In this document: in pieces, positions 661 to 22,871 of the stretch | Numbering within the stretch: position 1 is the first letter of the stretch | Layout of the letters: every line of letters begins with the position of its first letter | Assembly (NCBI GenBank): GCA_033964015.1 | Contig: CM066917.1 | Coordinates: 25,079,951 to 25,143,950 of the forward strand | DNA from: Scolanthus callimorphus | Lineage: Eukaryota > Cnidaria > Anthozoa > Actiniaria > Edwardsiidae | Direction of reading: 5' to 3' | Length of the DNA stretch: 64,000 bases | Translations under genes and position numbers: made by a program | The notes under the pieces: generated by a model | Seen by the model: the letters and a program-made list of their open reading frames with translations, nothing else | What the model was told of the DNA's origin: nothing | Database searches by the model: none

Positions 661-943
661 TTTCACATACCGCTGATGCCGCGCGCTGGGAAATAGGTGG
701 CCTTAGGAAGCAGCGGGCAACTCGCTTCTCCTCGGTTATCATGGCTAAGAACTCCAAGGTGTTGTTCGCCTATGGGACGGGATAGAACATCAAAAGAGAG
801 CAGAACATAATCCTTTTGCATCATGCTTGCTACCCCTCCTCACAACTCTCCCCGTTGATAAGCCCGCGACACACATCAAGCGCTGACAAAATGCAAAACG
901 GCTGTCACTAAGGCTCAATATAAAAGAGAAAATACAAACTTAC

Positions 944-3900
944 CATCTTCATGAAGGATTTGGAGACGTGCTCTTCATTCTTTAGGAACTGTGCTTTTTC
1001 CTGCTGCTCCTGGAAATCCAGCTCATTCCATTTCTCTTCTAAGCAATCAAAAAAGAAGAATATAAAAAGCCGCCTACTGGTTTAGCTCAACGCCGATCTG
1101 ACGATTTGAAGAAATGTTAAAATATCTGCCACAGGGTTGGTACGCTTTCTGGATTACAAAAATCCAGGATTTCCAGGAAAGTCTTTTAAGTTATTTTTCC
1201 AGGAGTTTTTATTGGGTAGAAATGCCCCCTCCCTCCCCCCCAAAAAAACATGATAAGTCTGGAGGATGTAAGATTCACGAAACTGACTGATTCAACCACA
1301 TTTGAGTTGAAACATTTTTCCAGGATGTAAGATTCTTTAAATTCCAGGACTTTCCAGGAAGGAAATGAAAATCCAGGACATTCCAGGATTTCCAAGACGC
1401 GTACAAACCCTGATTTCAGAAGTCCAGAATATCTCGACATTCGATTTCCAACTCGAAATCATTTATCGAGCAATAAAAAATACGTACTGTCTTCCTTTGA
1501 TTTCTGTAGCTTTCTCACGTGTTGGACTCGCGACAAACCGTCGTTCAACAAGTAGAGCAAGCTGTCGAGAATTGCATTCAGGAAGCTCTGAAATAAAGCA
1601 AAATATGAATAGATGAATTCATCACATGACGAGTGAATTCCACGGCAATAGACCTCCTCGGCTTGGGCGTAACGTTTTCCCATTTCAGATCACTTGACAT
1701 TCCCATGAGTATTGTCTCTTTGTGTTTCTGCTACGCACAGAAGGAGATATGAATATGGAAGCAACCCAAACAAAGAACGATTATTCAAATGAATGCCACG
1801 TGATCTGAAATGGGAAAACATTACGCCGAGGTCTATTTTCACGCGGAAACGATATCGTTTTTCAAGTGAAATTTAACGTAGAATTTACGAGTCTAGTGAT
1901 TAATTTTTCTTGAATCCCATAGCAAAGATTTAATATTATTTTATTTAGCGAAATGATTCGAGCTTTGAACTGTTTTTGCGCGCGGGAAACTTGTGTTTTG
2001 TCGAATTCAGGTTTCAACCATCAAATCTATATGGGATGGAAGAGGTTGTGGCGAACACGGCTGCTGTGGTGACTGCATAAGGAGGTTCCCATGGCGACAC
2101 AGGTCACACTGACTTCTCAGTGGAAAGCTATACTTACTTGGTTGAGGTGGGAGGGTGGAAGTGCGTGGAAAACTGCTGCACTGCTGCGAGCACGATTGCA
2201 CCGTCGATTACACTCATGCGCAACACCAGCAGACTGCTGGCCACAATTGCCAAACTGCAAGCTCATGGGGACAGGCACTTTGCGAGCAGCTTCAGCCAAA
2301 ATGGAAGCCACCCGATACTTTTCGTCACTGGACCAATCGCTCCAGGCTCCAGCAAAACGAAATATACCCCGTGCGGGCAATAACTGCGGGATTTTGTGGC
2401 TTTCAAATCCGACACTTTTCGCTACTACTAGGCTATAACTTATAGCTTACTAGTAGCTCAACCAATCAGAACGCAGCATTGACAATAGACCACTAGAGTG
2501 ATTTGACTACAACAAAAGATATAGGTATAGGTATATGCAATGCAGTGTACCTGGAATGTATTCTTTCCACATTCCAGCTTGAGCGAGTCTCTGTGATCGA
2601 CGTCTGTCCATAGCAACTCTAACAATTTGACAATCTCGGCTCTAAAATAGAACAGCCGAATTTAATCAAATAAGTATTTCATTAAAAGTCCATAGACGCC
2701 ACTTCTCAGCTGTCTTACCCATCATCACCACCCCTCCCCCCTCCCCATCAGTTCACTGTAGCTCATGGAGTATAGGGTAAAGCACAAACCTTGCAATGTC
2801 TTACCCATCATCATCACCCCCTCCCCCCTCCCCATCAGTTCACTGTAGCTCATGGAGTATAGGGTAAAGCACAAACCTTGCAATGTCTTACTCATCATCA
2901 CCACCCCCTCCCCCCTCCCCATCAGTTCACTGTAGCTCATGGAGTATAGGGTAAAGCACAAATCTTGCAATGTCTTACCCATCAACACCACCCCTCCCCC
3001 CTCCCCATCAGTTCACTGTAGCTCATGGAGTATAGGGTAAAGCACAAACCTTGCAATGTCTTACCCATCATCATCACCCCCTCCCCCCTCCCATCAGTTC
3101 ACTGTAGCTCATGGAGTATAGGGTAAAGCACAAACCTTGCAATGTCTTACTCATCATCACCACCCCCTCCCCCCTCCCCATCAGTTCACTGTAGCTCATG
3201 GAGTATAGGGTAAAGCACAAATCTTGCAATGTCTTACCCATCAACACCACCCCTCCCCCCTCCCCATCAGTTCACTGTAGCTCATGGAGTATAGGGTAAA
3301 GCACAAACCTTGCAATGTCTTACCCATCATCATCACCCCCTCCCCCCTCCCCATCAGTTCACTGTAGCTCATGGAGTATAGGGTAAAGCACAAACCTTGC
3401 AATGTCTTACTCATCATCACCACCCCCTCCCCCCTCCCCATCAGTTCACTGTAGCTCATGGAGTATAGGGTAAAGCACAAACCTTGCAATGTCTTACCCA
3501 TCATCACCCCCCCCCCCCTCCTCCCCCCTCCCCATCAGTTCACTGTAGCTCATGGAGTATAGGGTAAAGCACAAACCTTGCAATGTCTTACCCATCATCA
3601 CCACCCCCTCCCCCCTCCCCATCAGTTCACTGTAGCTCATGGAGTATAGGGTAAAGCACAAACCTTGCAATGCCTTACCCATCACCACCACCCCTCCCCC
3701 CTCCCCATCAGTTCACTGTAGCTCATGGAGTATAGGGTAAAGCACAAACCTTGCAATGCCTTACCCATCACTACCACCCCTCCCTCCCCTTCCCATCAGT
3801 TCACTGTAGCTCATGGAGTATAGGGTAAAACCTTGCAATGCCTTCGTCTTTCCACAAGATAAATAGGATGATCTTTTTGTTAACAGTTTTAGCTCATTGG

Positions 3901-6900
3901 CATAAGCAATGTTCAGAATCAGACCGTTCGAGGGGGAGCTATGAAATTATGAGTTCTGAATATCGAAAGAGGACAGTGAAAAGAAAATAATAAGGAAATC
4001 TCAAGTTGATATTTAGAGTTTTAAGTGGGTGGTGCGATGTTCTAATGAGCCTTCTGTCCACGAGAATACACGAACAAGCACCGAAAAGTTATCCAGGTCC
4101 CAAATCAAATTTGCATCCTGCCACAGGGTACCCAGACTCGTACCTGGAGCTAAACTTGTCAAACTCCTCTTTGTCCACGTCCAGCCCTTCTACCACATCT
4201 ACAGATGTGTATGTATGTATAAGGGCGGAGGAGAGCTTTTTCTTGATTGCTTGGCACGTTACCACACATGCAGTCAGGTCTCCTTCGATTCCACTACAAA
4301 AAGGAAAATGTCGGTCAGAGAGGAAACAGGAACGTCAGATCAAAACAATGGCGCGATACGATACGATACGATAATGCTACGAGGGTAGCATTTTAACGGT
4401 TTACAGTTTTCTACTATATGACCCTTGTTAGTATTTTGAGCCCTTCACCGGGGATGGACGCCCGCGTCCCCGCGGTTCTATCCCTCTTGTTCTGATTAGT
4501 GCAATTAGTGTACTGTGAGATGGGGCCTACGGTTCAACGTCCTTATTCCTACGAGACGCGAAGGTCGAACCAGTTGTAGACGTTGAAGCCAGCAAAGGCC
4601 CTCCAATGGCTGTCCCCAGGGCCTCCCCTGCGAGCCCACAGAGGGCCACAGACAACAGAGAAGGATTGATATAGAATGTTTCCTCATACGTTGCACTTCA
4701 TCAGCAAAAATGAACCCCCCTTCCCCCTCCCTCTCCCTCTTAAAATCCTGGATCTGCCACTGCTTTTATTGATCTCGCCTACCTTCCCCAGCTCGAGGTT
4801 TCCAGTAGAGACTGGTGCCTAGTCAAAACAAACATCCGCTTCAGTTAACAAGAATAAACAGTTCGAACGCAAAGAAAAATGATCTTACTAGAATTAAGGT
4901 GATTCAAAATGCAAGCAAACTACAACAATCAAAGCTTATGTAGAATCTAAGTCATGCCTGTACATGATATATTTCAGGTTGAAGTTTAATGACTTTCGTT
5001 ATTACTCTTTAAGCATCTGTAAGTTTACTACCTATTTTTATCACATCCCATTTGTGAATCAGTTGTTCCTATTTCTGTTTTGTCATGTAAAAGGAGGGTT
5101 AATTATGGCTATCGTGTTCAAATAAAGATGTATGTAAGTTGTATGTACTCAGCGGCATCACAGCATTTTGAATTTCGAGTAAGTCAGCTTAAGCCTAGCG
5201 GACAAGATGGATTGGTGTAGCATTACTTTTTCTTTTTTGAGCAGCATTCAGCGAAAGCCAGGAGTGCGCTGACAATCTTACTCGCCACCATGGGGCCTGG
5301 TCTACATCCCTTGTTATTCATTAGCGTAGCTGAGCAGTCGACAAATTTGTAAACCTGGAAATAACAAACGTGAATAGTTAATCAGGATCAAGCCTAAGAA
5401 TAATCATAGTTGTAATTTTACGTCTTGTGCCAAGATTTAAGGCTGGGCCCAAAGTTTTTTGTGTGAAAAGCTTTGAGAACCCGGTATAATTAGCGATATT
5501 TACCGTTCTTCAATGCATGCTTAACGTCGTCTAAATATTCCAAGATACCAGCCACACGATTCGGGCGTACGCTTGGTTCCTATTTGCAACTTACGTTTAG
5601 CCCCTTGAGGGTGTTAGGATTATGGACCACCACATAATGAAACCACGTACACATGTCCTTGATGTAGAACTCAGGGATGCAGGACAGAAGTTCCCGCTCT
5701 CTCTCGTGGATCTCTTGGTCCGAAAGATCCTGTATAAAACATCAACCCCAGTTAGACTCAGTTCCAAGGGATCTCATGTCACGTCGAATCTAATTCGTAT
5801 TATAATAACTTTGGCGAGCATTGTGGTGTATTATCAGGGCTCTAGTGAGCATTTTGGCGGGCTGTAATATATTAGTGCCCGCGCGAGTCAGTCGGCGTTA
5901 TGATGGTCGCCATAAATTATCATTTTTGTACTCAATGCTCTCCAAAGTTATAATAATAGTAATGTAGTTGATGTTCTTGGGCGTGCTTTAGGCCCTTCTC
6001 AGTGCTCATTTTATCCCTCGCTGCGCATATCCCTCGATGAGCATAAGTCGGGCCCAAAACATATTTACGCCCGCAAACATCAACTATATTGTTATAATAT
6101 ATCAAACATGAGACATAATGTTTCAACAGGAGTTTCTAAACACTGAGAAGTGAGGTAAAGCCGACTTTTTAACTCACTTCGAGGTGTTGGAAATCCTGAT
6201 GAAAACGCTGTCGAGTGTATGATATAGCTTCTCAAACGAACGATTTAACGTCGAGAAAAAGACAGACTAAAATCAAAAACAAATTATGCAAATTAAGATC
6301 GCGTATCCTCCTTCGCGCTTATCATTTTCTTTGTTTTAGAGCGGATTCCAGATGACTGTCGTGAGTAATTCGCTATTACTTTGTAATCACTCCTATATGT
6401 TTTATTCAGAATTTGTGTAATCACTTTGCGATTGATTTTACTACAGTCATATGAAAATCGCTCTATGCTTGATCAATTTTCAATGAGTTTGAGAACTGTA
6501 TTTAGCTATTGCATAAAGGTGACGTGGTCGTGGAAAAGGGTGAGAGTCCTTGCTAAGGACAGGGCCAGATGGCGAAGTAGTGTTAAGGCCTTATGCGCAA
6601 CAGAGCGCGAAGAGGTGAGGTAAGGTAAGGTAATAAAGATGACTATCTAAATTATACGCAAATTTATTTCAAACTATCATATTGGACGCGAAAAACGATC
6701 TGCGTTTGAAGCGTATGTTAGTAGTATGGGATGCACCAAATAGACAGCAGTTTTCAGGATGTTAAAGTAGCGACAAAATCATCACTACAAAAAGTTTGCA
6801 GCAAAATCGCACGCGGTTTTTCGATTCTTGGCCTTTCGTTTCTTAGCTACCTGTTTCATAAGCAGGTTTAACGCACCATGAGAAACCAGACTACCGTTAA

Positions 6901-9900
6901 AGGGGTACACTCGCACGCTTAATTTTCGCACAACCTGTCAAAAAATAAGTCTAATCCTAATCACCAAAAATACATTTAAGTTTACCGGGAATAACCAATA
7001 TAATAGTCCAGGTTTGTAAAATGACCTTTTAACTGGTAAATCAAATCAAATCTATAGTATTTTTTTATCTATTATCAAGAGGATGGAATTGGATTGCGAT
7101 TTGAATTATTTGCTTGCCAGGCAAGCGTGCCAGTGCCCCTTTAAACGCCGGGTACCACTGCAGACAATAGTGATGCATCAAGTGCGCATCTTATAATTCA
7201 AATACACTTAGTATATTTCGCCTTCCTAGTGAGTCATTGCTGTTTTTGCAAGATCTAGAAAACGCTTGTTCACCAAGAAATGCGCAGACTCTACAGCTGT
7301 ACTCTAGCAGGCTTGGGACAAACGCTGCGCAGTTGTACATGCAGGCTCACCTTATTGGAGGCAACGCAGTGCTCCATCTTCATGACAATCCAGTAGGCGG
7401 TGGTGATATAAAACTCACTGCACATGCGCATAAACTGGTGGTCTTGGATCACGGTGTCCCATTGAGAGACGAAAAGCTGTAGAACGAACACCAGAAGCTG
7501 AGCTATTTTCTCACTGGATGCAAAACGTTCAGGTAAAAGAAGATCTAACCATACTTGGAAACCACTGTTAGTGTATACTCCTTATTCAAAAAGGTTGCTT
7601 TGGTGTTTGGTCTTTCAATTATATGCACGAAACAAAGGAATTCTTTGCTTCAGTGACCACGAAACAAAGGCGTTCAATGATCAAAGCAACCTTTTCTGAA
7701 ATAGGTGTATAACATGGTCCGACCGTAATTCTTAAATGTTTCTGATTTGGAGCGACACACAGACAAGAGGCCACAGTATTTGGGCAAGTATTTGATTGCA
7801 AGTATTTGATTGGCTGAATGAATAAAACCGTCAGCCAAAAGAAACACGCAGCGGAGATATAAAAATCTACAAAGGAAAGGACGTACCGTTAAGAGCCCAT
7901 CAAAGTGAGCTTGGGACTCCTTTCCTTCGCTTCTTTCTTTGATTAGAAGATAATTTCTAGAAAACAACGAGAGAATGTTTACTGCAACTTACATAATTTC
8001 ACGAGAAGCACTAGCTCTGATTCCGCGAAACACTGGCTCTGATTCCGCGAAGCACTAGCTCTGATTCCACGAAGCACTAGCTCTGATTCCGCGAACCACT
8101 AGCTCTGATTCCGCGAAGCACTAGCTCTGATTCCGCAAAGCACTAGCTCTAATTCCGCGAACGGCTTTGAAGCTTCGACTTGAGTCTCCCTCTAACAACC
8201 CACGAGCTAGCTATACTTACTACTGTCGGAGGCTCTGCCATCCTTTAGTTTGCAGTTTCAAAATGGAGGATTAAAGTATTAGCCAATCAGAATAGACTTT
8301 TGGTTGTCTGCCGCCAGAGCCCTAAAACGCGGAGGAGTCTGGGAATGAGATAGCCTCCTCCGCATGCATCTCTCTCAAGAAGAACGAAAGAAAATGAGTA
8401 AAACGCGAAAACAGGGGCTTCCTGTGTTATAGGAAAGGAGCAAATTTTTACGTCCATTGAGGTCTAAACACAGGAAGCCAATTTCTTCTTCATTTAGAGT
8501 TGAATTCAGAGGAGGAAAGAGAATTCCTTGCCACCTCGCGCCTTGATACGCGGTTAGTGTGACAGCATCATGATTATCTATTAAACAAGATACCTTAGGA
8601 GTCTGTTGTAGTGTTGTATGGTATTGGTAAGACCAATATGCAGCGCGCGATGGGTGAGATGAAACACTTCAGTCTTCAAGTTAAAGCGACCTATAAGAGA
8701 ACACAAGTGAGTTACGTCAAGGTGAATTCGGGCATGAAATGAAGTGCAAAATGAAATGTTAGCAAGTGAAAATACTGTAATCAAATGCGGTTTACATTGG
8801 TGAGATGTCTGATCCCTAAGATGCGGACTACAATTTCACACTGCAGTTTCAATCCAGGGCCGTAGCTAGGGGAGGGCCAGAGGGGGCAGCTTCCCCCCCC
8901 CCCCCCCCCCCCCCCAACCAACAAAAACAACAAAAAGTAAGTTCTGTAGTTAGCTTAACGTCCGCCATGTACCTTTGAGATCATCGCTCAGCCGATAGCT
9001 TCGTTTAAAGACTGTCTCCTCCCCTTCGTCACCTGTCGATTGATAATTATACAATGCCTTTGAGTGGAATACCATGGAATATACAACGTGCCAAATACAG
9101 TTGGATATCTACGAACTACCACACTCGTAAGCAACCAGCGTTCACGAGGAACTCCAAATTCCAAAACTTGCTCAACCTTTGCTCAATTCCAGGCTCCTGC
9201 TCAACCCCTGTGAAAATTCCAGGCTCCTGCACAACCCCTGTGAAAATTACATGCTCCTGCTCAACCCCTGTGGAAATTCCAGGCTCCTGCTCAACCCCTG
9301 TGGAAATTTCAGGCTCCTGCACAACCCCTGTGGAAATTCCAGGCTCCTGCACAACCCCTGTGGAAATTCCAGGCTCCTGTACAGCCCCTGTGGAAATTCC
9401 AGGCTCCTGCTCAACCCCTGTGGAAATTCCAGGCTCCTGCACAACCCCTGTGGAAATTCCAGACTCCTCTACAGCCCCTGTGGAAATTCCAGGCTCCTGC
9501 ACAACCCCTGTGGAAATTCCAGGCTCCTGCACAACCCCTGTGGAAATTTCAGGCTCCTGCACAACCCCTGTGGAAATTCCAGGCTCCTGCACAACCCCTG
9601 TGGAAATTTCAGGCTCCTGCTCAACCCCTGTGGAAATTCCAGGCTCCTGTACAACCCCTGTGGAAATTTCAGGCTCCTGCTCAACCCCTGTGGAAATTCC
9701 AGGCTCCTGTACAACCCCTGTGGAAATTCCAGGCTCCTGCTCAACCCCTGTGGAAATTCCAGGCTCCTGCACAACCCCTGTGGAAATTCCAGGCTCCTGC
9801 ACAACCCCTGTGGAAATTTCAGGCTCCTGCTCAACCCCTGTGGAAATTCCAGGCTCCTGCACAACCCCTGTGGAAATTCCAGGCTCCTGCACAACCCCTG

Positions 9901-12900
9901 TGGAAATTCCAGGCTCCTGCACAACCCCTGTGGAAATTTCAGGCTCCTGCACAACCCCTGTGGAAATTCCAGGCTCCTGCACAACCCCTGTGAAAATTCC
10001 AGGCTCCTGCACAACTCCTGTGAAAATTCCAGGCTCCTGCACAACCCCTGTGGAAATTCCAGGCTCCTGCTCAACCCCTGTGGAAATTCCAGGCTCCTGT
10101 ACAGTCTCTGCGGGAATTTGAGGCAACCCCTGAGGAAATTCCAAGTTTTCTTGTGACCCCTGTGGAAATTCAAAACTTGCAAATGAATACCCTGTGAAAA
10201 TTCCAGGGTCAAAAACAACGACCCCTGTGAAAATTCCCAGGTCAAACACAAAGATCCCTGTGGAAATTTCAGGGTCAAACACACAGATCCCTGGGATATC
10301 AAATGGAACAGCCCGAAACCATACCTAAATGCCGTCCAGCGATCGTCCGCTCGCTAGGATACTCCAGCCGACAGGCCTCCGATACGGGGTAATTCGTGTT
10401 GATATCCAGGAGCTTGTCGGCTCCCTTGGTGAGGAAGAATGGCTCACAGAGCTGAAGCAGGACGGAACACAAGTTCATCATGTAGCCTGAGAGAAAGAAA
10501 AACACCATCAGTCTTCTCTTTTTGCGCTGTTACGACGCTTGGTTGCTATGTCAACTACGTTTCTAAGGACCGGTTTACCTGTGGTGCGTGCGGAGAAAAA
10601 ACAGATTCCGAAGCAACGTAAGGAATGAAATGAAAACACGAGAACGGGATAAAAGCGCAACTCACCGTCACCGGCCACGACGTCTTCGTATTGATCACTG
10701 ACTAGAGTTGCAGTGCGCAAGTCATTCAAGCTGACAACCGCTGATATCCATGCCAGTGCACTGAAAAGAATTGTAGAATCTTCAAACTTTCTCCCTGCTC
10801 GATCCCTTTCTCCCAACTTTCCTTCCCTCCTCCCCCCTTCCATCTTCCTTCTCCGCCTCCCTCCCTTTCATTTTTCTCTCTCTCTCTCTCTCTCTTCATC
10901 CATCTCTCCCTCCCTCCCTTACCTTCCTCCTACTTCCCCTCCCATCCTTCCTCCCTCCCTCCCTATCTCTCTCTTCCTTGCAAACAACCAACAAACCAAT
11001 CAACGACTGAACTCTTGACCAGCCAAAGAACCAAGTTTAACGTATTCAGGAAACGAGACTGTCTTGATGCTCATTTAAGCCCAATTTACACGACAGTTTT
11101 TTTTGGCACGGCTCGGATAAAAAGTGGTACGGGTACCAAATTTAATGGCACGGCTCGGGTATATTTGCGCTGTGCCCCACCGAAATTTCATCCGTGCCGA
11201 GACTAAAGCCACATTTACACGACAGACATTTTTTAGCACGGCTCGGATAGAAATGATTCTTGGACTACCTCGCCACGTAGTCCCAGCACGGACGAAATTT
11301 CGGTCCGGCTCTGACAAAATGTAGTACGGCAAAGCCATTTACACAGCGCAAATATACCCGAGCCGTGCCATGAAATTTGGTACCCATGCCACTTTTTATC
11401 CGAGCCGTGCCAAAAAGTCCCTGTCGTGTAAATGGGGCTTTAGCGTCACAGCACTGGATCCCTCCCTGTCATCTCACAAGGTCAGATCGTGAACTTAAAA
11501 AACACTTTCACAGAAAAGCGATTTGAAAGAACATCAACAGGCATAGGTACCTTTCTTGATTCTTGGACAAAACTCGTCGTAAAACCTTCTGCACGACATT
11601 CTGACAAGAGTGTATTCCATCTTGGATTTGACTCTGCATATCAAGAGACGGTAACACGGTGTAAGAGCACAGTATATAGATAGTAAAAGCTTTGAGTGAA
11701 GAAGACAATTTATAACATCCGCAAAACAGGGATTAAGATGTAATAACCTGTAATGGACGACGTAATTGTAAAAATTATAGCTTAAGCTTAACTAGTTAAC
11801 TTGTAACTCTAGTACTCAGTGACTCATGCAGGACTAACCCGCTTACGACCTCTCCCTGTGGCTTTGATAGCTCAGATGGACGAGCATTTCACCGGTATGG
11901 CAAAGGTCGTGGGTTCAAATCCCGACCAAAGCCTGACTTTTTTCTCAGGTTTTCAGTGGTGAATAATGGCCCCGCATTTGTACGTTTCCCATTTGTCGCA
12001 CTACTGATAAATGACAAATCTCTCTGTATATGTCTGTAAGTACTCAAAGAGTGAGCCGATTCAAGACAATGTTGCGGTCTGGGCGCACACAGCTTCGGAC
12101 AATGTTTTGTTTTTATAAATAGCTGTATTCCCTTTAACAAGGTTGAGAAAGAACACTTGCCTGGACTCGTTCAGCGTCGCTTTGGAACACTTGTGGAAAG
12201 TGGGGAAGTTGCTTGAACGGCTCTGATGCGCGAGATTTACCAGAAATCTTTGCCTCAAGTGTGGTCAAAGTCAGAAAGGTGGAAAATATGGAGTTGGTTT
12301 GGAAATAGATCCACTGCAAACGGGAAAACAAGAACGTTAATCAAGCGCGCGCTCATACACGCCACGAGGAAGTTTAGGAAGCACGCGAAGGGTATCGATA
12401 TAACCGTAACAGTCCTCAGTCACTCCTTAATTAATGTTTGAACCGATAAAAGAAGATGAATTTTGCGAAGAAAAGGCGAAATAACCATCTGCAATCATAG
12501 TTCTATCATTCATCTACCGAATTCAATTCAAGATATTGCTTTCCATTTCCAAAATCAGCCGATGGAAACGGATGCTTTCTCCTACTCGGTATGTTGCTAG
12601 GTAGACAAAATGGAGGCTAACAGAGGCTCTTTAAAGTCCATGATACGCACCAGTTCTGATGTCGATTTGGTGACTTCTTTGTCCAAGGCGTCAGTAATGA
12701 ACTGCATCATGCGAGGCTGTATTAAAGGGAAAAAAGAGACGCGATACGCAATGTTGCAGGTATAAATGCGTGACTGCGTAGCGGACTACAGTATTCACCT
12801 GTTTGATAAGAGATTCCAGTCCTTTGAAAACACGACTGCATTCCAAAGCGATTTCATCCATTCTGAAGAGAAATATGCTGTGAATTAGACCTACACGGGT

Positions 12901-14828
12901 ACCTAGAGCATTTGAAAACATGGAGGCATACCAGCTGATGTCATCTCACGATGGGCAAAGGAAAGTTTGCCAAAACGAAACGTTCCTAGGTTCAGTGAGA
13001 GATCACCGAATTTTCGCAGTTTTTGGAAGGAAAAACTAGATTTAATCATCGCCCAAGTCAAACGCAGTTTACATGTGACTTCAGGCAATATTTTCAGTAA
13101 CCAATCCGACTACATTTGTAATTCTGGTGGCAACCGTTTCATCTCCATTCGCAATATGCAGGGCTGCAAATTGCGCCCGTGAGGGTCGCTTTTGCCACTA
13201 AGTTTTTCTCTTTTGCGACTAAACTTTGTCAGTGAGTCGAAGTTTTGCGACTCACTCACTTCCTGTCTAACTCGTGGGCGCGAGTTCAGTTTTTGCGACT
13301 AACATTTTTTCTGAAACTTGTCACAAATTTTCGACTGGATTTTTTTTTAAATTTGAAGCCCTGATATGGCGACCAACTTACAAATCCTCTTGCGGGAAAC
13401 GTTTTCAACTTGGCAACAAGAATAGGAGGCATTTGGCGCCCCCAGAAACAATAATTATGGGACATGCAATTGTATTTATTATCATAATATTAAAATAATA
13501 CTTTGCTTACCGTTTTGTGTTTTTGACAACATGTACATACTTTCCAACAGATACTACCTACGGAAAACAGACAAGGATGAGAAAGTTTTTTTAAAGAACT
13601 AAATTAGGCAGTTACATCTGCATCTTAGATTGCCCTAAATACCGTTCAATTTTTTCTCGTTACCTTGATGTATTATTATACATTGTACTCACTATCTCGA
13701 TTCTGATTGGCGCGTGCTTTAGTTTGGGAATCATGCAATTTGAGGGTATTCTAGTCGTCACATCAGGAATAGAAAACGGCCTACATCAAGGCTCAAAATA
13801 CCATTTCCAGGAAGGTGTCTTTCACATGTGGGTCGCCATTTCCTTTTTCCAATAATTCAGCAAGAAACTCTGGGGAGACTGAGATTCCATCAGAGGACCA
13901 GCCAGACATAGCTGCCAGAAAGTACAACGCTGGACCCTGGGAAAGGACAATGGATTGAAATCAATAGCTGATCGCCAAATGACAGACCTAAATGGAGGTA
14001 TGGTTAGCTTAATGATTAGGGAACTGGATTGTTATAGAAGAATACCTGTGAGTCCCCTGTGTTGTGGAAGTCAGACCAGAGGTCATCTTCTGCAGTAGTT
14101 GGGCTTGTGCTTGCTGTAAAGACAAAGGCATAAAACCTATAAAACCTCTTGGGTCAAGCAATACCTGATGCTTGCTCTTTCTTTCTGCTAAAGACCCTCA
14201 ATCAAATACATTATTTAAAAAAAATTGGTTATACAAATGGCTCCACCAGATGGCTCTTCTTCCGTTGTGGGGTCTATGGTTTTAGGTCCTTATCCGAGAA
14301 GACGCGAAGGTCTAACCATTTGGAGATGCTAGTGCAAAGGCAGCACCTTATCCCAAGTGTTGGTCCAGTTGGGACTTGAACCCCAGCTTCCTGACAACAG
14401 CCCGGTGCTCGACCACTGAGCTAACCAGTCGTCAGTCCCAACCATGTACTCCTGTCCCATCCAGTCATATGTGTGACTGGGGAGATGGGTAAGGTCACGA
14501 AAGGTCATGCTTTACTGTAAACATTGTCACACTATGTGCTAGTCGTCACGTCGGACTAACTCACTTTCAGTCAGACTTGCCTCCCAACGCTATCTTGCTA
14601 TCTATCTATAGCGACATTAATTGGAATGAAGTGGAGAAAATTTGCTTTTCACATTACATAGCAGTTCCTACCATGTGATAAATGCTTCAAGACAGTAATG
14701 GTGCAGGATTCCTTAATGGCGGTGGTAACATCAGACCATATCCTGGCTCCATTACTACTACCACTAACATCTGATGGTAATGCCAAGGAACATCTCTCAC
14801 GGCACTTCATTGCAAACTTCATTGGTTC
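944..14828 (-). CDS. UBE4: UBE4/Ufd2 core region (exons 11-28)
   Basis: Residues 372-1002 follow the armadillo-like Ufd2 core segment by segment. Exon 13 has PEFLAELLEKG. Exons 17-19 read KVLRRVLSKNQE, ALAWISAVVSLNDLR and GYMMNLCSVLLQLCEPF, equivalent to the FMLNFLWVLQQL block. Exon 20 has LTHRALHIGL. Exon 23 has IPEFYIKDM. Exon 24 has GPMVASKIVSALLAF, equivalent to NPYLVAKLVEVMF. Exon 25 has LIHTYTSVDVVEGLD, equivalent to the MKFYTDVEHTG block. Exons 27-28 have LLYLLNDGLS and EEHVSKSFMK, equivalent to TTFLLDESLE and DERVSRSYL. The family adds ubiquitins to pre-formed chains through a C-terminal U-box. No U-box is encoded at 1-943. The sequence shares features with both UBE4A and UBE4B; exon 28 favours UBE4B and exon 20 favours UBE4A, so I do not assign a paralogue. 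Confidence 0.85.
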
Positions 14829-17800
14829 CTAATGAATAACAAGACAATGGCATTTGTTAAGTCAATATATATAGTTTGCTATATATTGCTACATTTGCAT
14901 TGCCCCTCTAATTCTGAGTTTAGGAGGGAGACAGAGTGGCCATGTGGTCTGAGCGTCATCCTTGTGACCTGATATCATGAGCACAGTCCCCACTCTGGCT
15001 CCTTGATGACCATAACCATTCTTTGCTGACTTGGTTTACCTTCCGCAAGGGTGTAACCAAGGGGGGTTTTCAGGGTTTCCAAAAACCCCTCTTGTGTCAA
15101 GGAACCCCCTTCTGCCTCTCCAATTTTTAGTGATTTTATCCCAAAACTAAGTACTACCTTCACTATGACTAGTATTTGAGAGCAACCTTTTTTTCATTTT
15201 GAACCCAATTTGGACCCCCACCCCCCTCTCCCCTCTTAGAAATCTTGGCCACGCCCCTGCTCCAGCCAGTTATTTTAATGTGTTGTTTAAGTGTGATGCT
15301 TGAATTAGCTTTTATAGCTGTATATCAGCAGTTACAAGCATTACAACACAACGTGATTCACCAAATAAATAAAATTGGTTCCAAAGCTAAAAAAACAGTT
15401 CAAGGTTTTAAAATAAGGTTGCAAAGTCCACACCATCTACTCATTGATATTTCTGTACCGATTTATAATACAACAAAGTATTATATGAGTGTTGATCATG
15501 GCGGCGGCGCTTCGTTGAAGTCGTGATAAACAACAGTTCTAAATGGACTGTTTCATCGGCGCTTCATTGAAGTCATGGGCCATGTTGAATCACAGTTCTA
15601 AGTGAACTGTTTTGATAGCTATGTATATGCAAGACCGGTTTCGAGCCCTGGATAAGGCGCTCTTCTTCAGTTGCGTATAGCTTTGAGTCAGTGCACTCGC
15701 AGGATGCAAGATGCAAAGACTAAACACTCGTTGAGGCAACCGGGTTTTGTTCGAGCAGTTTCGTTGAATCTTATTGGCTGGTTAAACTTGGCGCTGATTG
15801 GACGGGAAGTTAATTTATGCATATATACGCACATTTCGATCCGCGTCGGTTCAAGCTCAAGTTTTAGGAGCACAGATGAGAAGTTTTTTTACAAGTTGTA
15901 AAAATATCTAAAGCTCCTCAAACAGCATTGTAGATTCAGTATTTAGATGTTAATTATGTTGTCTCTTATAACAATGATGACTGGAAACTAACAGACTAGT
16001 AAATGACTTCTGAACAGAATAAACACCGGCCGCGGTTCCGATGAAATCCCGCACAGGGAAACAATTTACTGCTGAGTTACAAGTCAACCCGATAAGAAAT
16101 CAGGGAACATCTCGTTCGTTTCTGCTCTAAAGAGAAGCCGTTGTGCGTGTGTGAACAATATAGGATAAGGAGTTTTTAAAAAGTCCTTTTAGGGCTTTGT
16201 TCACGATTGCACGTGACTTTCTCGTTCGCTTCTGCTCTTAATCCAGATCCCAGTTCATGTCACCTGGCTTGTACCACAGATTGCTACTGTACATGGTGCA
16301 GAAACCATTAACTGCTTGAATTCCTGATGGTTTTTCCTGCATTCGACTTAATACTAATAATGGCCCGTTCGAGCCGTCGAGTTTCTCAGATGTCCTATGA
16401 TCCCATATCTTCAGCTCCTGTGTGTTTATATCTAAGTTGACTGTGGAGCCAAACACATGAGGCAGTGTTGAACACATGACAGACAGACAGACAGACAGAA
16501 AAGGGTATCTCCTGCAAGTAATGTACTCACCAGCTCTGGACAGATTCTTTTCAGAAACAATTTTTCAATTTTCTAAAGACAAAACGAGGACAGGTGTTAA
16601 TGTTACAGATAGATTGCAGGGTAACAAAATCCAAATACTATGTTGTATTTTAAATGCATGGTACCTTTGTTTTGTCTTCACCATCTTGTGGAAGGTCAGT
16701 AGGTTTTAATTCCAGTTCAGCTGGCTGGGAATGTGATCTCAGTGGCAAGGTCTTTTGATAAAAAATTAATAAATTACATGCTTACAGTAGGTTAGGTTAT
16801 TGGAGAAACAAATCATACAATATCAGACATCTGGTGAGGACAGCGATAGCGCAGGGACATCAATTCTCATGGTTTTGCCAGGAGTCCCTAGAATTTTCAC
16901 TCCTGTCTCCAAGTAAAATTGTCCTGAATTGCCATATACTGGTGACTATTACTGTATATCTCCCGATTTTCTTTCTTGGCATTTTCTCATAATAACCTTT
17001 GTATAACCTTTTCCTTCGGTCTGAAATCCAAAGGTTTCTCCTCATATAACCTTTGTATCTCGTCTGAAATCCCAAGGTTTATCACGATTTCTGAAGTCCT
17101 AGGGTTGATATCCTTGATCCCTCTAGACAAATCTCAATTTCAAGTTGGCCATACTGGTATCTGTGTTCAAGATTAAAAAGAAAAGATGGCCAGATGCCAG
17201 ATAACCCTCAAGGAACTACACCTTATTTTGATGCCAAGAAAAAAGAGGTTTTAATTTCCCACAATTTTATACTCAAATTATTAAATGGTCAAAATAGTTC
17301 CACAACCCTGCTGGCCATCAATTACATTTTACCTTTCCTGTAACAGGTCCTTCTGATATTTTCTGAAAGTGAATTTTAAATATTTATCAGATCACATTTT
17401 TGCAACATTAAAAATACATGGGTTAAACATGTACACCAAACAGTGAGTGCTGTGAAGGAGTGTAGCATGCTAAATCATTTCAGGGTGAAACTCACCAAGG
17501 TGAAGTCCAACAAGTGGGACAACACTGACTTCATGGCATCTTGATACGACATCTCAACCTGTGATAAACCCAACAGTTTTAAAAATCATTACTACCATCT
17601 GCATTGGCCATCCATGAAGCGTGACAATTTTTTCGAACCATGGGGCCAATGTTCGAGAAGTTGTCGGGTTCTTGCTCGCTGATTGGCTGCAGTTTTGACC
17701 GTTATTTTTCAGCCAATCAGAGAGCAAGAAACGTGACTACTTTTCGACAAAATATGCATGTTTGAAAAGTAAACCTTCGTGAAAAATCATCACACTTCAT

Positions 17801-20800
17801 GGATGGACCCAAATGATAGTACACCCCAAAATTTTTAAAAAATTTTATTTGGTTGCCAAATCCACTCAAAGCAACTAAGGTAATTGACCCATTAGCTTCT
17901 AGCTAAAAAAAGATTTTTATTAACGAGGGATATTATGAAAAAATAAGGAAAAATGGACCATAATTGGATGAGTTAAGAGCATCACAGCTTGTGGGGTTGC
18001 TGTATCAAGAGGGTAATGAAATATAGAAAATTGTCTGCAGCCCTATTTATATGTATTGTGCAATTTCAATACAAAATTCCATACCCCCACCATGGAGGGA
18101 ATGCACTCATAAGACCCCCAACCCTCTGGAATTCCCTCTGTGATAGGGGGTATAGATCTTTTCTGGAATTGCACAATATTTACCTTTTGCTTTGTGCTTC
18201 CTCCTCTTTCCTTGAAACCAGCTGAAATTGAGTTTATTCATTGGTTAGGCGTCGTTAACACCCATTCATATAAAAAGCTCAAATGTTCGGTAAAAAAGGG
18301 AATGTTTGCCCATTTATACTCTATGACACAACCATTTCCCATTCAACTTCTTTAAGGCGACTGTAAACCTTCGAAGGTGCCCTTCGCTAAAAAAATTCCC
18401 TCGCGCGCGCAAACACAATTATACATATAAACTATATACCATTTTAAAGCTCAATAGTAGTAGTTTCCAAATATGCTATTTTTATTTCTTCTCTTTTAAA
18501 ACCTTTTACGCTAGGCGCCGCGCAATGAGTTTCCGACGCGCTCTAAAAATATGAATTATGCGCATAGTGAACGCGTTTCTTTCAGCTCAAAAACTGCATC
18601 ATGTCCATCAGCACTCATAGGGCTGTCAAACCGTGTGGGGATTTGTCAATATTTTACTTAGTTTATGATTTATCAAAGGCTAAAGTCGAAAGAGTAAAAA
18701 TTACTTACATTCCTTTACTTACGGCGCATTTGCATCGCAACAAAGCAATATTTCTTTAAAGCCCCACACGGTTTTAGAGATCAATGTTTAAACTAGCAAT
18801 TGGCCAAGTTTCAAACGAATCCATCGCTTCCCTCTATGCGCATAATTCAGTTTTATGTTGGTAATCTGCTCTAAAACTACTAAAGAGTTACGGCTCGAAG
18901 AAGCTTTCCTGGCTTCTCAAGTGGACAGCAAACAAACGTCAAGCAGATGTCAACTGATAACCAATGAGAACGAAGCGCCCCGTTGGGCCAGGAAAGATCG
19001 CGGGAAAGCTCTTCCGATCTCGAATTTCAAGAGCATTGTTTATCGTTTTAAGCCTCGACTTCCATCAGGATAATGGAATGGCAAAGCCAAAATCAAACCG
19101 ACGCAAATCAAGCGCTGCAAATCAAAGTAGGAAGACTAAAAACTCTCCAACAAAGAGGAAAAAGGCCAAGGGAGGAAAACAAAAGACAGCAGCGGTCACA
19201 GCGACCCGATTTAAATCACATGGAAATCATGTTCAGGGAACGCGAGCTCGAGTAGCGAGAACGATCAGATTATCTAGCTTCTTTGGAAATATCGAATCTA
19301 TTTACTTCAGTTTGACGGAACACATTTTGCGGATACGCTTAAATAGCATGCAGAGACATGGCCAAGCGCGAAAGCCACCAAGACGAATCAGAAATGTACA
19401 ATACTGCAAAACGTTGTATTAATTGTTGAAATTCGTGAGATTGAAAGTTGAGTTGTTCGCGTTCACTTGTAGTTCGATGTTTGAAGGAAATGTGCGTAAA
19501 TATGCTAATGAGTCCCGGATTATGTTTTCGCGCGCAATCAGTGGGGAGCCTGTGTCATATGTAAACAGGATTAAAGGATTAAAGTCGGCTGAGTTAGTAA
19601 ATGCTTCGACGAAATGAATAATTATTCTCGTTTTTACGCATGAAAACACTACTTCTTTGTATTTTTCTTTTTACGAGTTGCTAGATTATGACACAAACTT
19701 TAAGTTCAGCCGAAAAAAGAAAAACAGAAAAAAATTTGCCTCGAAGGTTGACAGTAGCCTTAATGGGAAACATAGATTTTAGATGAGATTTTTTAAATTC
19801 CTGAACTTTCAAGTCAGGATATGAGACATACGAACTCTGTATACCTTCAGGTAATAATAATTTTCTCACCTTTCCTATCATCTCCTTCTTTCTTTACACT
19901 CTTTTCTGGTGACACTTTTTCATCTCCTTCTTTCTTTACACTCTTTTCTGGTGACACTTTTTCAGTGCCCTTCCTTGTCAATCCACCTGTGCTTGCTGTT
20001 GGAATTTTCTTGATTTCCTTATAAATGGTTGAGCTTAAAGCAGCCTTTACACTGCTTTCAACAGTCCCTTCACTAGTAATCTTTCCCCCTGGGCTGCATT
20101 GATTATGATCACTTCTTTGAGTAGGTCGCTTACGAATGTCAGATTCTCTTGACCCAATTGGAGAAATATTCCTGTCAGGAGGTTTCCCCATTTTTACATC
20201 ATCTAAAGTTGGGGTCCTTTGGGTCATATTTCTATCAGAGTCTTGATTTTGTGGAGTTTCAAGAGCCAGTCTTCTGAGTCTTGCAGTTCTAACATTTTCA
20301 ACAGCCACTGAAACAAGAATATCCATAACCAGTCACTAGTGAAAACCCCAAGGGGGATCGTAAAGATCCTTTCAGGATCCTATAGGCGGATTTATTGTGA
20401 CGTCAGTGTTTACATATTTGAAGCATCCGTGAAAATCAGCAAGCGTAACGGAGCTACAAAAAGAATTGTTCTGAATTTCAATAGCGCCTGGTGAATGAAG
20501 CGTAATTTCAAAGTTTTACGTTCGTCATTCAAAATATGAGCGCATGGCGATAAGTTCAATTTACAGAAAACATGACGGGTAATGAGCTTCTTGCCACCCA
20601 AGAAATTCAAGGCTATTGAAAATGCCTCTTTGCTCTTGAAAAATGTAATAAATATGTTCGCAAGATGAAATAATTACTATTCCTAAGAACTTATTGAAGT
20701 TTACGTTCGTTTTGGAGGCTCTACGCAGGTTTTTTGAAAATGAGTGGATTGCTGTGTGGCAAACGACTCATTATCCCACATATTTTCACCAAAATGAACA

Positions 20801-22871
20801 TTTAACTACGTCGTTACAACTGAATGTTAAACCTTCAAATTTTCAGAGTACCAGGTTTCATTTGCTGTCCGCTATTCATATTCAGTGCTGATTATTTTCG
20901 AGCTCCTTCAAACATTCTGAATCTATGCAAATTAGCCCAAACTGTAAACACGAAATCCCCCTATAGGATTCTTAGCTTCCTGTCAACCCCCAGAGCATAG
21001 GAATCTCTTTATTTGGGGTGGGGTGGGATGAGAAATTTTGAGCTCTGTAGTAGGAACCCCTGTCATATGAAACAATCTCAAACCAAAAATTGTCGTTTTT
21101 CAACACCTCACGGCCAAAACCATATTTGGAATCATTTATCTTATAAAGAAGTGACAGGAGATCCTCTTTTGAGAAGAATTTCGGCATATGTAGCAATAAA
21201 ACTGAAATTTTGAATGAAAACTTGCAGGAATCACAGAGACTGGAGTTCTCGATCTGTCCACCAATGATTTTGGCTTGGTAACCACACTAATACCCACACT
21301 AGCCCACGCACGACTCGACCCAGTCCTCCCAAGTGCATTCAGCAAAAACGACAATGATTCGTTGATATGAATACTTAAGCTGGTCTGCAGCCATAGATTG
21401 GCTGGTCAACCATTAACCCATACAGCCAACCAGTCAATCAGTCTGTGAATAAGATGACTAAGTTTAATATTTTCAAACTTCAATTTATTTGTTGTTGCAA
21501 TTACCTTTTCCCGTTGCAGAACTAGAGCCAGAGTTTCTTCTAAAAACAACAACAACAATACCAGCCAACAATATAAGAGCTACCAGGCCAATTCCTAACT
21601 CTCTTTTGCCTAGGTTAGAGTGTAACTTGTTCTTCTTCTGTTCAGATTGTTTTTCTCGCTTACTAGCTTCTCTTGCCACTTTTTCCTGTGTGCATTAAAA
21701 CATAGTAACAAGTGAAATGATTGTGCTCGTTCAATTTTGAAATCACCCCTTTTTAAATCCAAGTAGAAAAAGCAAAAACTTACCAAGGTATCTTTTAAAT
21801 ACTTGGCCATTTCATCTTGGTCAATTTTTCCATTGCCATTGCGATCATACAAAGCAAGTTCCTAGCAAATATAAAAACAATATTATCATGACAATCTTGG
21901 TACTGGCAAATGGTCAAGAATATGGTTATACCTCATCACTAGGCAGGTACTTTTTATCAACTGACTGTGTTGCCATGGCATCCTCCAGCTCATCCATAAA
22001 GGCATCTCTGGCATTGCCACTGAAATAAAAGTGCAACACATACAATATATTACAGGTACAATATATTTCAGGATATAGTATTGCATTTCCTAGTACCAAA
22101 GCTGCGAAATAAATGTAACCACTTTAGTGTCACTTTAGCTTTTAGTAGTTTAAAAACAACTGGACATTTTAAAAATCGGGAACCCCCTGGGCATTTATTT
22201 TATTTGTTGGTGTATCCCTGCAGACATGACTGAAAAAACTGTTTTAGTCAGGACTTTTTTAACAGCTTAGCACAGTACCCCGGGACACTTTGTCCCCATG
22301 AACATTTTAAGGTCAAGACCCCCTGGAAAAAGGCCCAAACCCCCCCCTGACAAAGTGTGTGTCCCCAATCCCCCCAGTAGGGATATTTAAATATGCAAAA
22401 GCTGTCTGCCGTTTCCTGCAAAACCACTCACTCCTTTATTCATGACCTAAAGGTCTGACTATTTTCAGGTTCATTTCCTTAAAGGAAGTTTAGAGTTATC
22501 AACTTGACAGTTGATTTGAGTAGTACAACTTCTTAGTTTCGAGAACAGTGCAAATCACCAAATGTGTGACAACTATTGTCGAGGACAAAGACCTACGCCT
22601 ACACTCTTGCAAAACTGTCACAGCTTCGTTTGGTTTTGAATCTGAAGCTTTACGATTACACAAAAAGCTTTTATGAGCTCAAATATTTTGTCAATAACTG
22701 TAAAGGCGGGAAAATTGTTTACAATACCAAAGTAAAAGAAATGCACTTCCTGGCGCGCGCGCTATGCAAACACTACTTCCATGGCGGCAAACCCAGCAAA
22801 TACCTGCTGCAGAAAACAGCTAAGACCACTAGGAGAACAGCAATCTTCCGATCCCACCGAAGAAACGCCAT
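944..22871 (-). CDS. Predicted signal-peptide/EF-hand/TM/E4 (Ufd2-type) ubiquitin ligase, 3'-partial
   Basis: Twenty-eight exons, all phase-compatible, give 1,002 codons without a stop. In transcript order they are 22804-22871, 21932-22019, 21784-21861, 21505-21685, 19870-20307, 18184-18221, 17496-17558, 17333-17362, 16665-16751, 16531-16572, 14672-14828, 14046-14113, 13802-13936, 13511-13553, 12799-12890, 12651-12716, 11551-11633, 10666-10760, 10325-10486, 8594-8690, 7887-7956, 7351-7476, 5595-5729, 5227-5354, 4144-4293, 2551-2641, 1488-1587 and 944-1038. Exons 11-28 match the UBE4/Ufd2 core, which extends ubiquitin chains and works with p97/Cdc48. Exons 1-4 encode a secretory N-terminus. 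The last donor (gtaag beside 944) leads out of the window, so the U-box must lie to the left. The E4 identity is firm. Joining it to the N-terminal part is an inference from splice phase alone; two overlapping genes or alternative first exons remain possible. Confidence 0.65.
1132..1412. mobile_element. CAGGGTT-ended inverted-repeat element
   Basis: The ends CAGGGTTGGTACGC and CAGGGTTTGTACGC are inverted and the interior is filled with TTCCAGGA motifs. hAT-like termini, no clear target duplication. It lies in the last E4 intron in the window. Confidence 0.5.
1647..1838. mobile_element. Short MITE with about 45-bp inverted ends
   Basis: AATAGACCTCCTCGGCTTGG through TTTCAGATCAC is mirrored at 1797-1838. 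It lies in the E4 intron between exons 26 and 27. Confidence 0.6.
2716..3843 (-). repeat. 86-bp minisatellite, 13 units, G-rich on the E4 sense strand
   Basis: Each unit carries CAGTTCACTGTAGCTCATGG, GAGTATAGGGTAAAGCACAA and a C-rich block. On the minus strand, which is the E4 transcript sense, the block reads GGGGAGGGGGGAGGGGG then GATGATGGG, four G-tracts able to form a quadruplex. Variants alternate with a three-unit period (CATCATCATC, CTCATCATCACC, CATCAACACC), giving a higher-order repeat of about 260 bp. It lies in the intron between E4 exons 25 and 26. Confidence 0.9.
4490..4600 (-). repeat. Headless fragment of the second SINE family
   Basis: Shares the CCTTATTCCTACGAGACGCG-type body with 14290-14330, but the promoter boxes are missing. 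Confidence 0.35.
6338..6464. mobile_element. AGAGCGGATTTCAGATGA MITE, copy A
   Basis: AGAGCGGATTCCAGATGACT is mirrored by AGAGCGATTTTCATATGACT. It lies in the E4 intron between exons 22 and 23. Confidence 0.55.
6897..7144. mobile_element. TTAA MITE family, copy 2
   Basis: TTAA occurs on both sides. The inverted ends read AGGGGTACACTCGCACGCTT and the inverse of AGGGGCACTGGCACGCTTG. It lies in the E4 intron between exons 22 and 23. Confidence 0.65.
8004..8160. repeat. 22-bp tandem repeat, about 7 units
   Basis: The unit is CACTAGCTCTGATTCCGCGA plus AG, with minor variants. It lies in the E4 intron between exons 20 and 21. Confidence 0.85.
8891..8915. repeat. Poly-C run
   Basis: An uninterrupted run of about 25 C follows GGAGGGCCAGAGGGGGCAG, part of a degenerate CAGGGCCGTAGC-type repeat starting near 8857. 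Confidence 0.7.
9175..10290. repeat. 30-bp minisatellite, about 31 regular units plus degenerate 3' units
   Basis: The unit is ATTCCAGGCTCCTGCACAAC plus CCCTGTGGAA. Because 30 is divisible by three and the unit has no stop in several frames, long repetitive open frames appear on both strands. The array is intronic, between E4 exons 19 and 20, and ends about 35 bp from the exon 19 donor at 10324. Confidence 0.9.
10795..10981. repeat. Polypyrimidine tract with (CT)n microsatellite
   Basis: About 185 bp almost pure C/T, including a CT repeat at about 10875-10895. It lies just upstream, in transcript sense, of E4 exon 18, where it is purine-rich. Confidence 0.8.
11075..11442. mobile_element. Fold-back element with about 100-bp inverted arms
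   Basis: The left arm (AAGCCCAATTTACACGACAG then GGCACGGCTCGGATAAAAAG) is mirrored at 11338-11442. A third partial copy of the arm starts at 11204. It lies in the E4 intron between exons 17 and 18. Confidence 0.75.
11860..12050 (+). mobile_element. tRNA-derived SINE
   Basis: The head, 11860-11934, has a perfect A box (TAGCTCAGATGGACGAGC, 11868-11885) and B box (GGTTCAAATCC, 11912-11922), and GGCTTTG pairs with CAAAGCC. The anticodon stem does not fold, so it is not a working tRNA gene. The body after the head is unrelated to tRNA and its end is uncertain. Confidence 0.6.
13159..13363. mobile_element. CAGGGCTGCAAATT inverted-repeat element
   Basis: The ends CAGGGCTGCAAATTGCG and CAGGGCTTCAAATTT are inverted and the interior repeats TTTTGCGACTAA. 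It lies in the E4 intron between exons 14 and 15. Confidence 0.55.
14217..14432 (-). mobile_element. tRNA-derived SINE, second family
   Basis: On the minus strand the head has an A-box-like segment (14407-14424) and the B box GGTTCAAGTCC (14372-14382). A body follows, containing a GACCTTCGCGTCTTCTCGGA segment that is partly shared with 4530-4575. It lies in the E4 intron between exons 11 and 12. Confidence 0.55.
15048..15260. mobile_element. CAAGGGTGTAACCAAG / CAGGGGCGTGGCC element
   Basis: The inverted ends GCAAGGGTGTAACCAAGG and GCAGGGGCGTGGCCAAGA enclose C-rich and G-rich blocks. It lies in the E4 intron between exons 10 and 11. Confidence 0.5.
16238..16477 (-). other. Unassigned 79-codon open frame
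   Basis: It encodes a non-repetitive sequence (for example WDHRTSEKLDGSNGPLLVLS) ending in WDLD then stop. It lies in the E4 intron between exons 10 and 11, beside a (GACA)n tract. Its splice phase does not fit the E4 chain. It could be an alternative terminal exon or a transposon remnant. Confidence 0.2.
16531..18221 (-). CDS. Linker exons 6-10 of the E4 chain
   Basis: Five small exons of 38, 63, 30, 87 and 42 nt connect the disordered exon 5 to the E4 core. Exon 6 (18184-18221) converts phase 1 to phase 0 and the other four are phase 0 at both ends. Exon 7 encodes a predicted helix (EMSYQDAMKSVLSHLL), weakly like the N-terminal helix of UBE4B. Exon 9 is proline-rich. Exon 10 is short and basic (KIEKLFLKRICPEL). 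These exons have no recognisable domain and rest mainly on splice signals and phase. Because exons 7-10 are all multiples of three, any of them could be skipped without a frameshift. Exon 6's donor lies 3 bp from the end of a short inverted-repeat element (18053-18179). Confidence 0.5.
17604..17812. mobile_element. MITE in E4 intron 6
   Basis: Ends TTGGCCATCCATGAAGCGTG and the inverse of TTTGGGTCCATCCATGAAGTG; two inverted CAAT-box-like GATTGGCTG motifs lie inside. Confidence 0.6.
18053..18179. mobile_element. Short inverted-repeat element abutting the E4 exon 6 donor
   Basis: TATTGTGCAATTTC and CATACCCCCACCATGGAGGG are mirrored at 18130-18179. The end is 3 bp from the exon 6 donor GT (18182-18183). 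Confidence 0.55.
18352..19763. mobile_element. 1.4-kb TTAA-flanked inverted-repeat element in E4 intron 5
   Basis: Bounded by TTAA on both sides. The terminal inverted repeat is TTAAGGCGACTGTAAACCTTCGA versus TTAAGGCTACTGTCAACCTTCGA. The interior has an open frame at 18964-19422 (152 codons, Lys/Arg-rich) that I do not recognise, and no transposase. A TTAA target is typical of piggyBac-type elements. Confidence 0.6.
19870..22871 (-). CDS. N-terminal exons 1-5 of the E4 chain: signal peptide, EF-hand, TM, basic-acidic linker
   Basis: Exon 1 starts at 22871 with MAFLRWDRK followed by a hydrophobic run ending near VFCSS, a typical signal peptide. Exon 3 (residues 53-78) holds a canonical EF-hand loop, DRNGNGKIDQDE, at about 58-69. 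Exon 4 (79-138) has a charged coiled stretch, then a transmembrane segment around 108-126 (LGIGLVALILLAGIVVVVF), then arginines, which fits a type I topology with a cytosolic C-terminus. Exon 5 (residues 139-284) opens with VENVRTARLRRLAL, which resembles the short basic N-terminus of vertebrate UBE4B (xEIRRRRLARL). It is otherwise low-complexity and disordered. It carries a 42-bp in-frame tandem duplication giving two copies of a GDEKVSPEKSVKKE unit (about 19875-19965). Exon 4 ends and exon 5 begins in phase 1. I recognise no family for the lumenal part. Confidence 0.6.
20345..20990. repeat. Possible 650-bp inverted-repeat element
   Basis: The segment near 20350-20395 (GGGGGATCGTAAAGATCC, TAGGCGGATTT) is weakly mirrored by AAATCCCCCTATAGGATTC near 20955-20975. 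It lies in the E4 intron between exons 4 and 5. Boundaries are uncertain. Confidence 0.3.

Follow-up and report, generated by a model that had tools for sequence, protein, structure and literature searches.

A 64,000-nucleotide stretch of the Scolanthus callimorphus genome (GCA_033964015.1, contig CM066917.1, positions 25,079,951 to 25,143,950; hereafter the window) poses two questions about a chain of minus-strand exons: whether it is one gene or two, and which kind of ubiquitin enzyme it encodes. The first exons predict a signal peptide, an EF-hand loop and a transmembrane (TM) helix, and the later ones encode the core of the E4 factor Ufd2. From comparison with relatives, we think that this is probably a single gene for a single-pass type I membrane protein combining E2 and E4 parts. 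Starting at the N-terminus, it would carry a lumenal EF-hand, the TM helix, a motif resembling the p97-binding VBM, the Ufd2 core and, replacing the U-box, an E2 domain of the BIRC6 type.

We rebuilt the gene from splice sites and reading phase and then corrected it against relatives, which gave 32 exons running from 22871 to 671. The first-pass annotation had counted 28 minus-strand exons with all junctions in phase; the chain is indeed open and in phase from the ATG at 22871, and the count is what had to be revised. All 31 junctions of the corrected model are in phase over 1110 codons without a stop, and its 3330 coding bases are spread over 22 kb of the window. Alignment with relatives shifted the first base of exon 24 to 7476. 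An added exon, 4818-4783, supplies residues that relatives have and the first rebuilt model lacked, and exon 769-671, beyond the earlier end at 944, is the last visible one. The sole GC donor is that of exon 17. Pfam matched Ufd2P_core in the first rebuilt model at an expectation value (E) of 1.3e-75 over profile positions 30-534 of 628; the match starts near the end of exon 17, and the window edge cuts the gene inside the core, at profile position 534. Judged by eye and from hydropathy, the protein start resembles a signal peptide. The parts of the gene are as follows.

22804..22871, minus strand: exon 1, with the start codon and a segment resembling a signal peptide (MAFLRWDRKIAVLLVVLAVFCS...), from the in-phase model and aligned N-termini
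21932..22019, minus strand: exon 2, acidic segment, predicted lumenal or extracellular, from the in-phase model and alignment with relatives
21784..21861, minus strand: exon 3, EF-hand exon (Pfam EF-hand_1 E 8.2e-5, under the curated cut-off)
21811..21846, minus strand: EF-hand loop DRNGNGKIDQDE, residues 58-69, from pattern and shuffles
21505..21685, minus strand: exon 4, lysine-rich juxtamembrane stretch and TM helix, from the in-phase model and alignment with relatives
21542..21598, minus strand: predicted TM helix, residues 108-126, with basic residues C-terminal to it, from hydropathy
20324..20326, minus strand: internal ATG that is in frame, a candidate start for a soluble isoform (MDILVSVAVENV...), shortly upstream of the acceptor of exon 5
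19870..20307, minus strand: exon 5, post-membrane linker, from the in-phase model, with junction 4/5 aligned in relatives
20270..20293, minus strand: VRTARLRR, residues 144-151, exact fit to the VBM consensus PsiRXXRXXR as given in the available part of PMC5559722
18221-18184, 17558-17496, 17362-17333, 16751-16665, minus strand: exons 6-9, from the corrected model and alignment with relatives
16572-16531, 14828-14672, 14113-14046, 13936-13802, minus strand: exons 10-13, from the corrected model and alignment with relatives
13557-13511, 12862-12799, 12716-12651, 12313-12161, minus strand: exons 14-17, from the corrected model and alignment with relatives
11633-11551, 10760-10666, 10486-10325, 9032-8973, 8690-8594, minus strand: exons 18-22, Ufd2 core, from Pfam Ufd2P_core and the corrected model
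7956-7887, 7476-7351, 5729-5595, 5354-5227, 4818-4783, minus strand: exons 23-27, Ufd2 core, from Pfam Ufd2P_core and the corrected model
4293-4144, 2641-2551, 1587-1488, 1038-944, 769-671, minus strand: exons 28-32, Ufd2 core, from Pfam Ufd2P_core and the corrected model

Junction phase by itself is weak evidence for a single gene; what decides is whether the joined protein is conserved. Used as a query, it found 15 proteins, and seven of them cover 95-99% of its length: those of Actinia tenebrosa (48% identity), Nematostella vectensis (LOC5513359, 47%) and Oculina patagonica (42%), and four lgn entries (43-44%). In all seven, the EF loop is canonical and lies within residues 55-73, and the TM helix lies within residues 104-144. 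Their starts are signal-peptide-like by eye, with a 19-residue stretch of hydropathy at least 1.6 in 4 of the 7. Within a 38-sequence set, the N-terminal 138 residues of the window protein alone match all seven at E 1e-17 to 7e-5, compared to a best E of 0.12 for the reversed query, and a 63-residue piece spanning junction 4/5 aligns with six of them at E below 1e-3 (Nematostella, 1.2). The joined protein, 1528-1637 amino acids long, is found in seven lgn entries (P0003-P0006, P0011, P0016 and P0022; the TM helix of P0016 is weak, with a mean hydropathy of 1.44) on contigs no longer than 4.8 to 6.5 kb. Because the coding bases span 22 kb here, these contigs are best read as transcripts. These relatives hold a signal-peptide-like start, EF-hand, TM helix and Ufd2 core in one polypeptide, as the first-pass annotation had proposed for this gene, and the anthozoan proteins of this layout that it had suggested looking for exist in Actinia, Nematostella and Oculina.

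That annotation had also reported neither a last exon for an EF-hand gene of its own nor an independent start for the E4 gene. Here it was mistaken, as there are candidates for both. Reading through the exon-4 donor gives GNCNNK and then a TAA stop, which an AATAAA at 21489 overlaps, and the internal ATG at 20326 is in frame, with an in-frame stop shortly upstream of it. These features would suit two adjacent genes, one for a small secreted or TM EF-hand protein that closes with exon 4 and one for a soluble Ufd2-core protein that opens at or near ATG 20326, with their common phase an accident; the Littorina and Lingula models, which begin beyond the expected TM site, point the same way. However, the joined protein occurs in Actinia, Nematostella, Oculina and four lgn entries of the cnidarian clade, and in ten entries of the mollusc clade (seven plus three lgn), and the seven joined lgn entries sit on transcript-sized contigs. 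The EF-TM part alone (a 144-amino-acid query) found no stand-alone relative at E 0.01 or better among 250 candidates, within the limits of sensitivity and length of that search. A scan of intron 4 with a strict donor pattern found no other ATG-to-donor first exon. We rejected separate EF-hand and E4 genes because the joined protein is conserved in relatives, and consider them very improbable; judged by these alignments, the read-through stop and ATG 20326 do not indicate separate genes.

The first-pass annotation had treated the architecture as a possible peculiarity of this lineage, and its distribution turned out to be far wider. A second search, by C-terminal alignment, returned 28 proteins, including those of amphioxus (3 entries), Lingula, Owenia, Liolophura, Patella, Haliotis and other snails. 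Beyond other cnidarians, the relatives include molluscs, a brachiopod, an annelid and amphioxus. The sponge matches, Dysidea and Oopsacas, hold the core, and Dysidea holds core plus E2. By these sequence matches the family is old, spanning cnidarians and bilaterians, with core plus E2 also in a sponge. Scoring in both searches was confined to the candidates with the most words in common with the query (7991 and 7994). No vertebrate, insect or nematode was among the relatives found in those candidates, which, given this selection, is not proof of loss. Public records name the members "uncharacterized", "hypothetical", "E4 A/B-like" or similar.

Our set comprises 35 relatives and excludes P0015, a U-box E4 that served as control, and P0037, a gene model mixed with G-protein-coupled receptor domains. 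In P0037 (Batillaria attramentaria), these domains are followed by an EF loop at residue 374 and a portion of the core, and the model looks like two adjacent genes fused by annotation. The tree and motif table have 27 long rows, consisting of the window and 26 of the 35 entries; P0009, P0012-P0014, P0029, P0030 and P0034-P0036, all of 622-1000 amino acids, were left out. In the tree, the window is sister to Nematostella (100/99) and then to Actinia (100/100), the position of a sea-anemone-like cnidarian. The lgn entries were assigned to the cnidarian clade (P0003-P0006) or the mollusc clade (P0011, P0016 and P0022) from the tree only.

The same relatives indicate the kind of enzyme. Pfam found Ufd2P_core in 35 of 35 and the E2 family UQ_con in 32, and no U-box in any of the 35 at E 0.01, a domain that the same library detected in the control P0015 at 2e-26. 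In the six relatives scanned first, UQ_con follows the core and there is no U-box. The core is diverged, scoring 292-336 bits in four long members vs 746 in P0015. The E2 domain of Nematostella is closest to that of BIRC6 (E 1.9e-68), followed by UBE2O and UBE2Z. A segment DGKVCLSLLGT, aligned with DGKVCLS of BIRC6, is present in 31 of the 35 and missing in P0027, P0034, P0035 and P0036, and a predicted coral structure has yeast Ufd2 as its best match and the BIRC6 E2 as its next. Across the 35 members Pfam matched 12 families, and BIR is not one of them. The term "E4 ubiquitin ligase", used for this gene at first, is therefore not supported in the U-box sense, and we rejected an ordinary U-box UBE4B orthologue.

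The N-terminal modules are also conserved in much of the family. The 12-residue loop DRNGNGKIDQDE has its ligand positions in canonical form, a pattern that turns up in 0.0005 of shuffles of the segment. A canonical loop is present in 18 of the 27 long rows, namely the window, 7/7 other rows of the cnidarian clade and 10/11 mollusc rows, though EF-hand_1 itself was matched at E 0.01 in only 7 of the 35 relatives. The TM helix of exon 4 has a mean Kyte-Doolittle hydropathy of 3.09 over 19 residues, and 21 of the 27 long rows score at least 2.2 near the N-terminus, including amphioxus and Owenia, which keep the helix and have no EF loop. Membrane anchoring is commoner in the family than the EF-hand. 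A CHD5 match of the window N-terminus (E 0.0027, under the cut-off) was dismissed as chance. Pfam gave no SAM match in the 35 members, nor in the N-terminus of the window protein.

Directly behind the TM helix, exon 5 carries the basic motif noted earlier, with VENVRTARLRRLA a few residues in. According to the available part of PMC5559722, the p97-binding VBM is an aliphatic residue followed by R-x-x-R-x-x-R, UBE4B binds p97 through an N-terminal VBM, and Hrd1 and gp78 have p97-binding helices. PMC5468458, as far as its text is available, classes UBE4B/Ufd2 and Hrd1 under VBM and gives the motif as RRRRXXYY. With K allowed at the last position, the first form fits 12 of the 27 long rows. The other p97 motif described in the accessible text of PMC5468458, VIM (Rx5AAx2R), did not fit exon 5 when compared by eye. 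Exon 5 also contains a coding tandem duplication of 42 bases (19878-19964, 100% match), which repeats VSPEKSVKKEGDEK in the post-membrane linker.

Several findings weigh against a membrane-anchored E2–E4 hybrid with a functional EF-hand and VBM. Toward the C-terminus, the E2 exons of the window gene fall outside the window; the gene's own E2 domain would lie beyond the window edge, as we infer from the relatives. The active-site region of the coral model (654-673) has a predicted local distance difference test score (pLDDT) below 50, and three of the 35 members, probably partial sequences, show no E2 domain. Since the window stops short of the C-terminus, the unseen end could encode a U-box, making this a true U-box E4 in Scolanthus only. 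However, the 35 relatives have no detectable U-box and Nematostella, the closest relative in the tree, has the E2 domain, so that we regard such an end as extremely improbable.

At the N-terminus, EF-hand_1 scores 22.3 bits in the window protein vs a curated cut-off of 25.4. Amphioxus (0/3), Owenia (0/1), Lingula (0/1) and three distant sequences (0/3) have no EF loop, nor has Littorina; calcium binding is therefore not essential to the family. Nor is the similarity between the N-termini of the window and the molluscs significant (best E 0.011), so this kinship rests on layout and loop pattern. The EF-hand was either present in the cnidarian-bilaterian ancestor and then lost several times, or it had two origins; the N-termini of molluscs and cnidarians have drifted too far apart for their sequences to decide. 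It is quite possible, if a little short of an even chance, that the EF-hand is structural or a relic within a membrane-anchored E2–E4 enzyme that lacks calcium control. Amphioxus and Owenia, with TM helix and no loop, fit this explanation, as does a single EF-hand without its usual partner, and extracellular calcium would be expected, from general knowledge, to saturate the site. Against it, the canonical loop persists in 8/8 cnidarian-clade rows including the window and in 10/11 mollusc rows despite strongly diverged flanks.

Littorina, Lingula and the three distant sequences also lack signal peptide and TM helix in their models. Together with the position of ATG 20326 and the stop before it, this would fit a gene that makes both a membrane form, starting in exon 1, and a soluble form that depends on an internal promoter and begins at that ATG. 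However, the models may be incomplete, and three of these sequences are distant; we consider a second, soluble product somewhat unlikely. The putative VBM has its own difficulties. The window lacks the RRRRXXYY form (as worded in the available part of PMC5468458), exact PsiRXXRXXR occurs in only 3 of the 27 long rows (window, Actinia and Owenia), and even the loose consensus fails in Nematostella, all 11 mollusc rows and the three distant rows. A loose fit within 45 residues past the TM helix arises in 0.0365 of window shuffles, so that conservation rather than any single match has to carry the argument.

We still favor the membrane-anchored hybrid, and infer its topology, catalysis, p97 binding, endoplasmic reticulum (ER) location and calcium control from its parts. 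Core and E2 would be cytosolic and the EF-hand outside, because basic residues follow the TM helix and ubiquitin chemistry is cytosolic. BIRC6 and UBE2O are E2/E3 hybrids. By analogy with them, the E2 domain would accept ubiquitin from E1 on its own cysteine and hand it on directly, while the Ufd2 core would grip the ubiquitinated substrate. The membrane-side VBM would recruit p97, as for Hrd1, and chains would be extended on membrane or ER substrates, forming a self-contained station at the membrane with a plausible role in ER-associated degradation. The EF-hand domain may tune or stabilize the enzyme by calcium outside the cytosol.

Each part of this layout has known counterparts. UBE4A, UBE4B and Ufd2 have a U-box; the family has an E2 domain in 32 of 35 relatives instead, and differs further in its TM helix near the N-terminus (21/27 long rows) and its diverged core. 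Unlike the large E2s BIRC6 (BRUCE/Apollon), UBE2O and UBE2Z, it has a Ufd2 core and no BIR match, and most of its long members are membrane anchored. UBE2J1/UBE2J2 (Ubc6) and Hrd1/gp78 are likewise membrane-bound ubiquitin machinery. UBE2J, however, has a tail anchor, whereas here the anchor is N-terminal and the enzyme C-terminal, with E2 and E4 parts in one chain.

STIM1, the ER calcium sensor, consists of a signal peptide, an EF-hand, a single TM helix and a cytosolic effector, and these elements recur here in the same order. The family has no SAM match, and its effector is a ubiquitin enzyme where STIM1 has a channel activator; the resemblance is an analogy of layout, not kinship. STIM1-like calcium control is possible, and it is the least supported step of the mechanism. 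That the EF-hand senses ER or outside calcium and switches an E2–E4 enzyme with attached p97 seems to us unlikely. If it did, calcium-store depletion would directly set membrane-protein degradation, in an early-animal system kept in many invertebrates, with no vertebrates among the matches here.

The E2, E3 and E4 steps of ubiquitination are normally divided among separate proteins. In this family, an E4 core appears to carry an E2 where a ligase module is expected, and to be anchored in a membrane whose other side bears a calcium-type loop. Such proteins would let one ask, within one natural chain, how E4s hand on ubiquitin and whether ubiquitination can be governed by calcium outside the cytosol. 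The architecture was undescribed in the literature searched (titles and abstract starts, among the matches listed, with subscription papers mostly outside), so that these are apparently known modules in an undescribed, conserved order. A snail survey, in the part available, lists a "ufd-2" of Biomphalaria glabrata, BGLB026024-PA, with Ufd2P_core and no U-box, and its authors suggest an annotation problem (PMC6548493). BGLB026024-PA may be a member of the same family.

Two tandem arrays lie between exons of the gene. Between exons 20 and 21, a 30-base unit is repeated about 30.6 times at 9185-10103 (94% match). Its length is divisible by three, which yields long open frames, up to 402 amino acids, on both strands; they are probably not genes. 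The second array, at 2711-3829 between exons 28 and 29, repeats an 87-base unit about 12.8 times (95% match).

Rfam and tRNA scans of the window gave no matches. Elsewhere in it, 39812-44007 contains a pair of similar, oppositely oriented copies that bear a reverse transcriptase, with a GIY-YIG nuclease-like stretch (RVT_1 at 1.5e-7 and 9.8e-4, the second under the cut-off); we take them to be Penelope-like. A 401-codon open frame at 54509-55714 on the minus strand has a tyrosine-recombinase domain (Phage_integrase, 2.2e-8) and is probably a mobile element. There is an exon of a TLC-domain protein at 31574-32509 on the plus strand (TRAM_LAG1_CLN8, 7.5e-8), and a protein-kinase exon at 61654-62025 on the minus strand (Pkinase, 2.9e-14) presumably resembles casein kinase II alpha.
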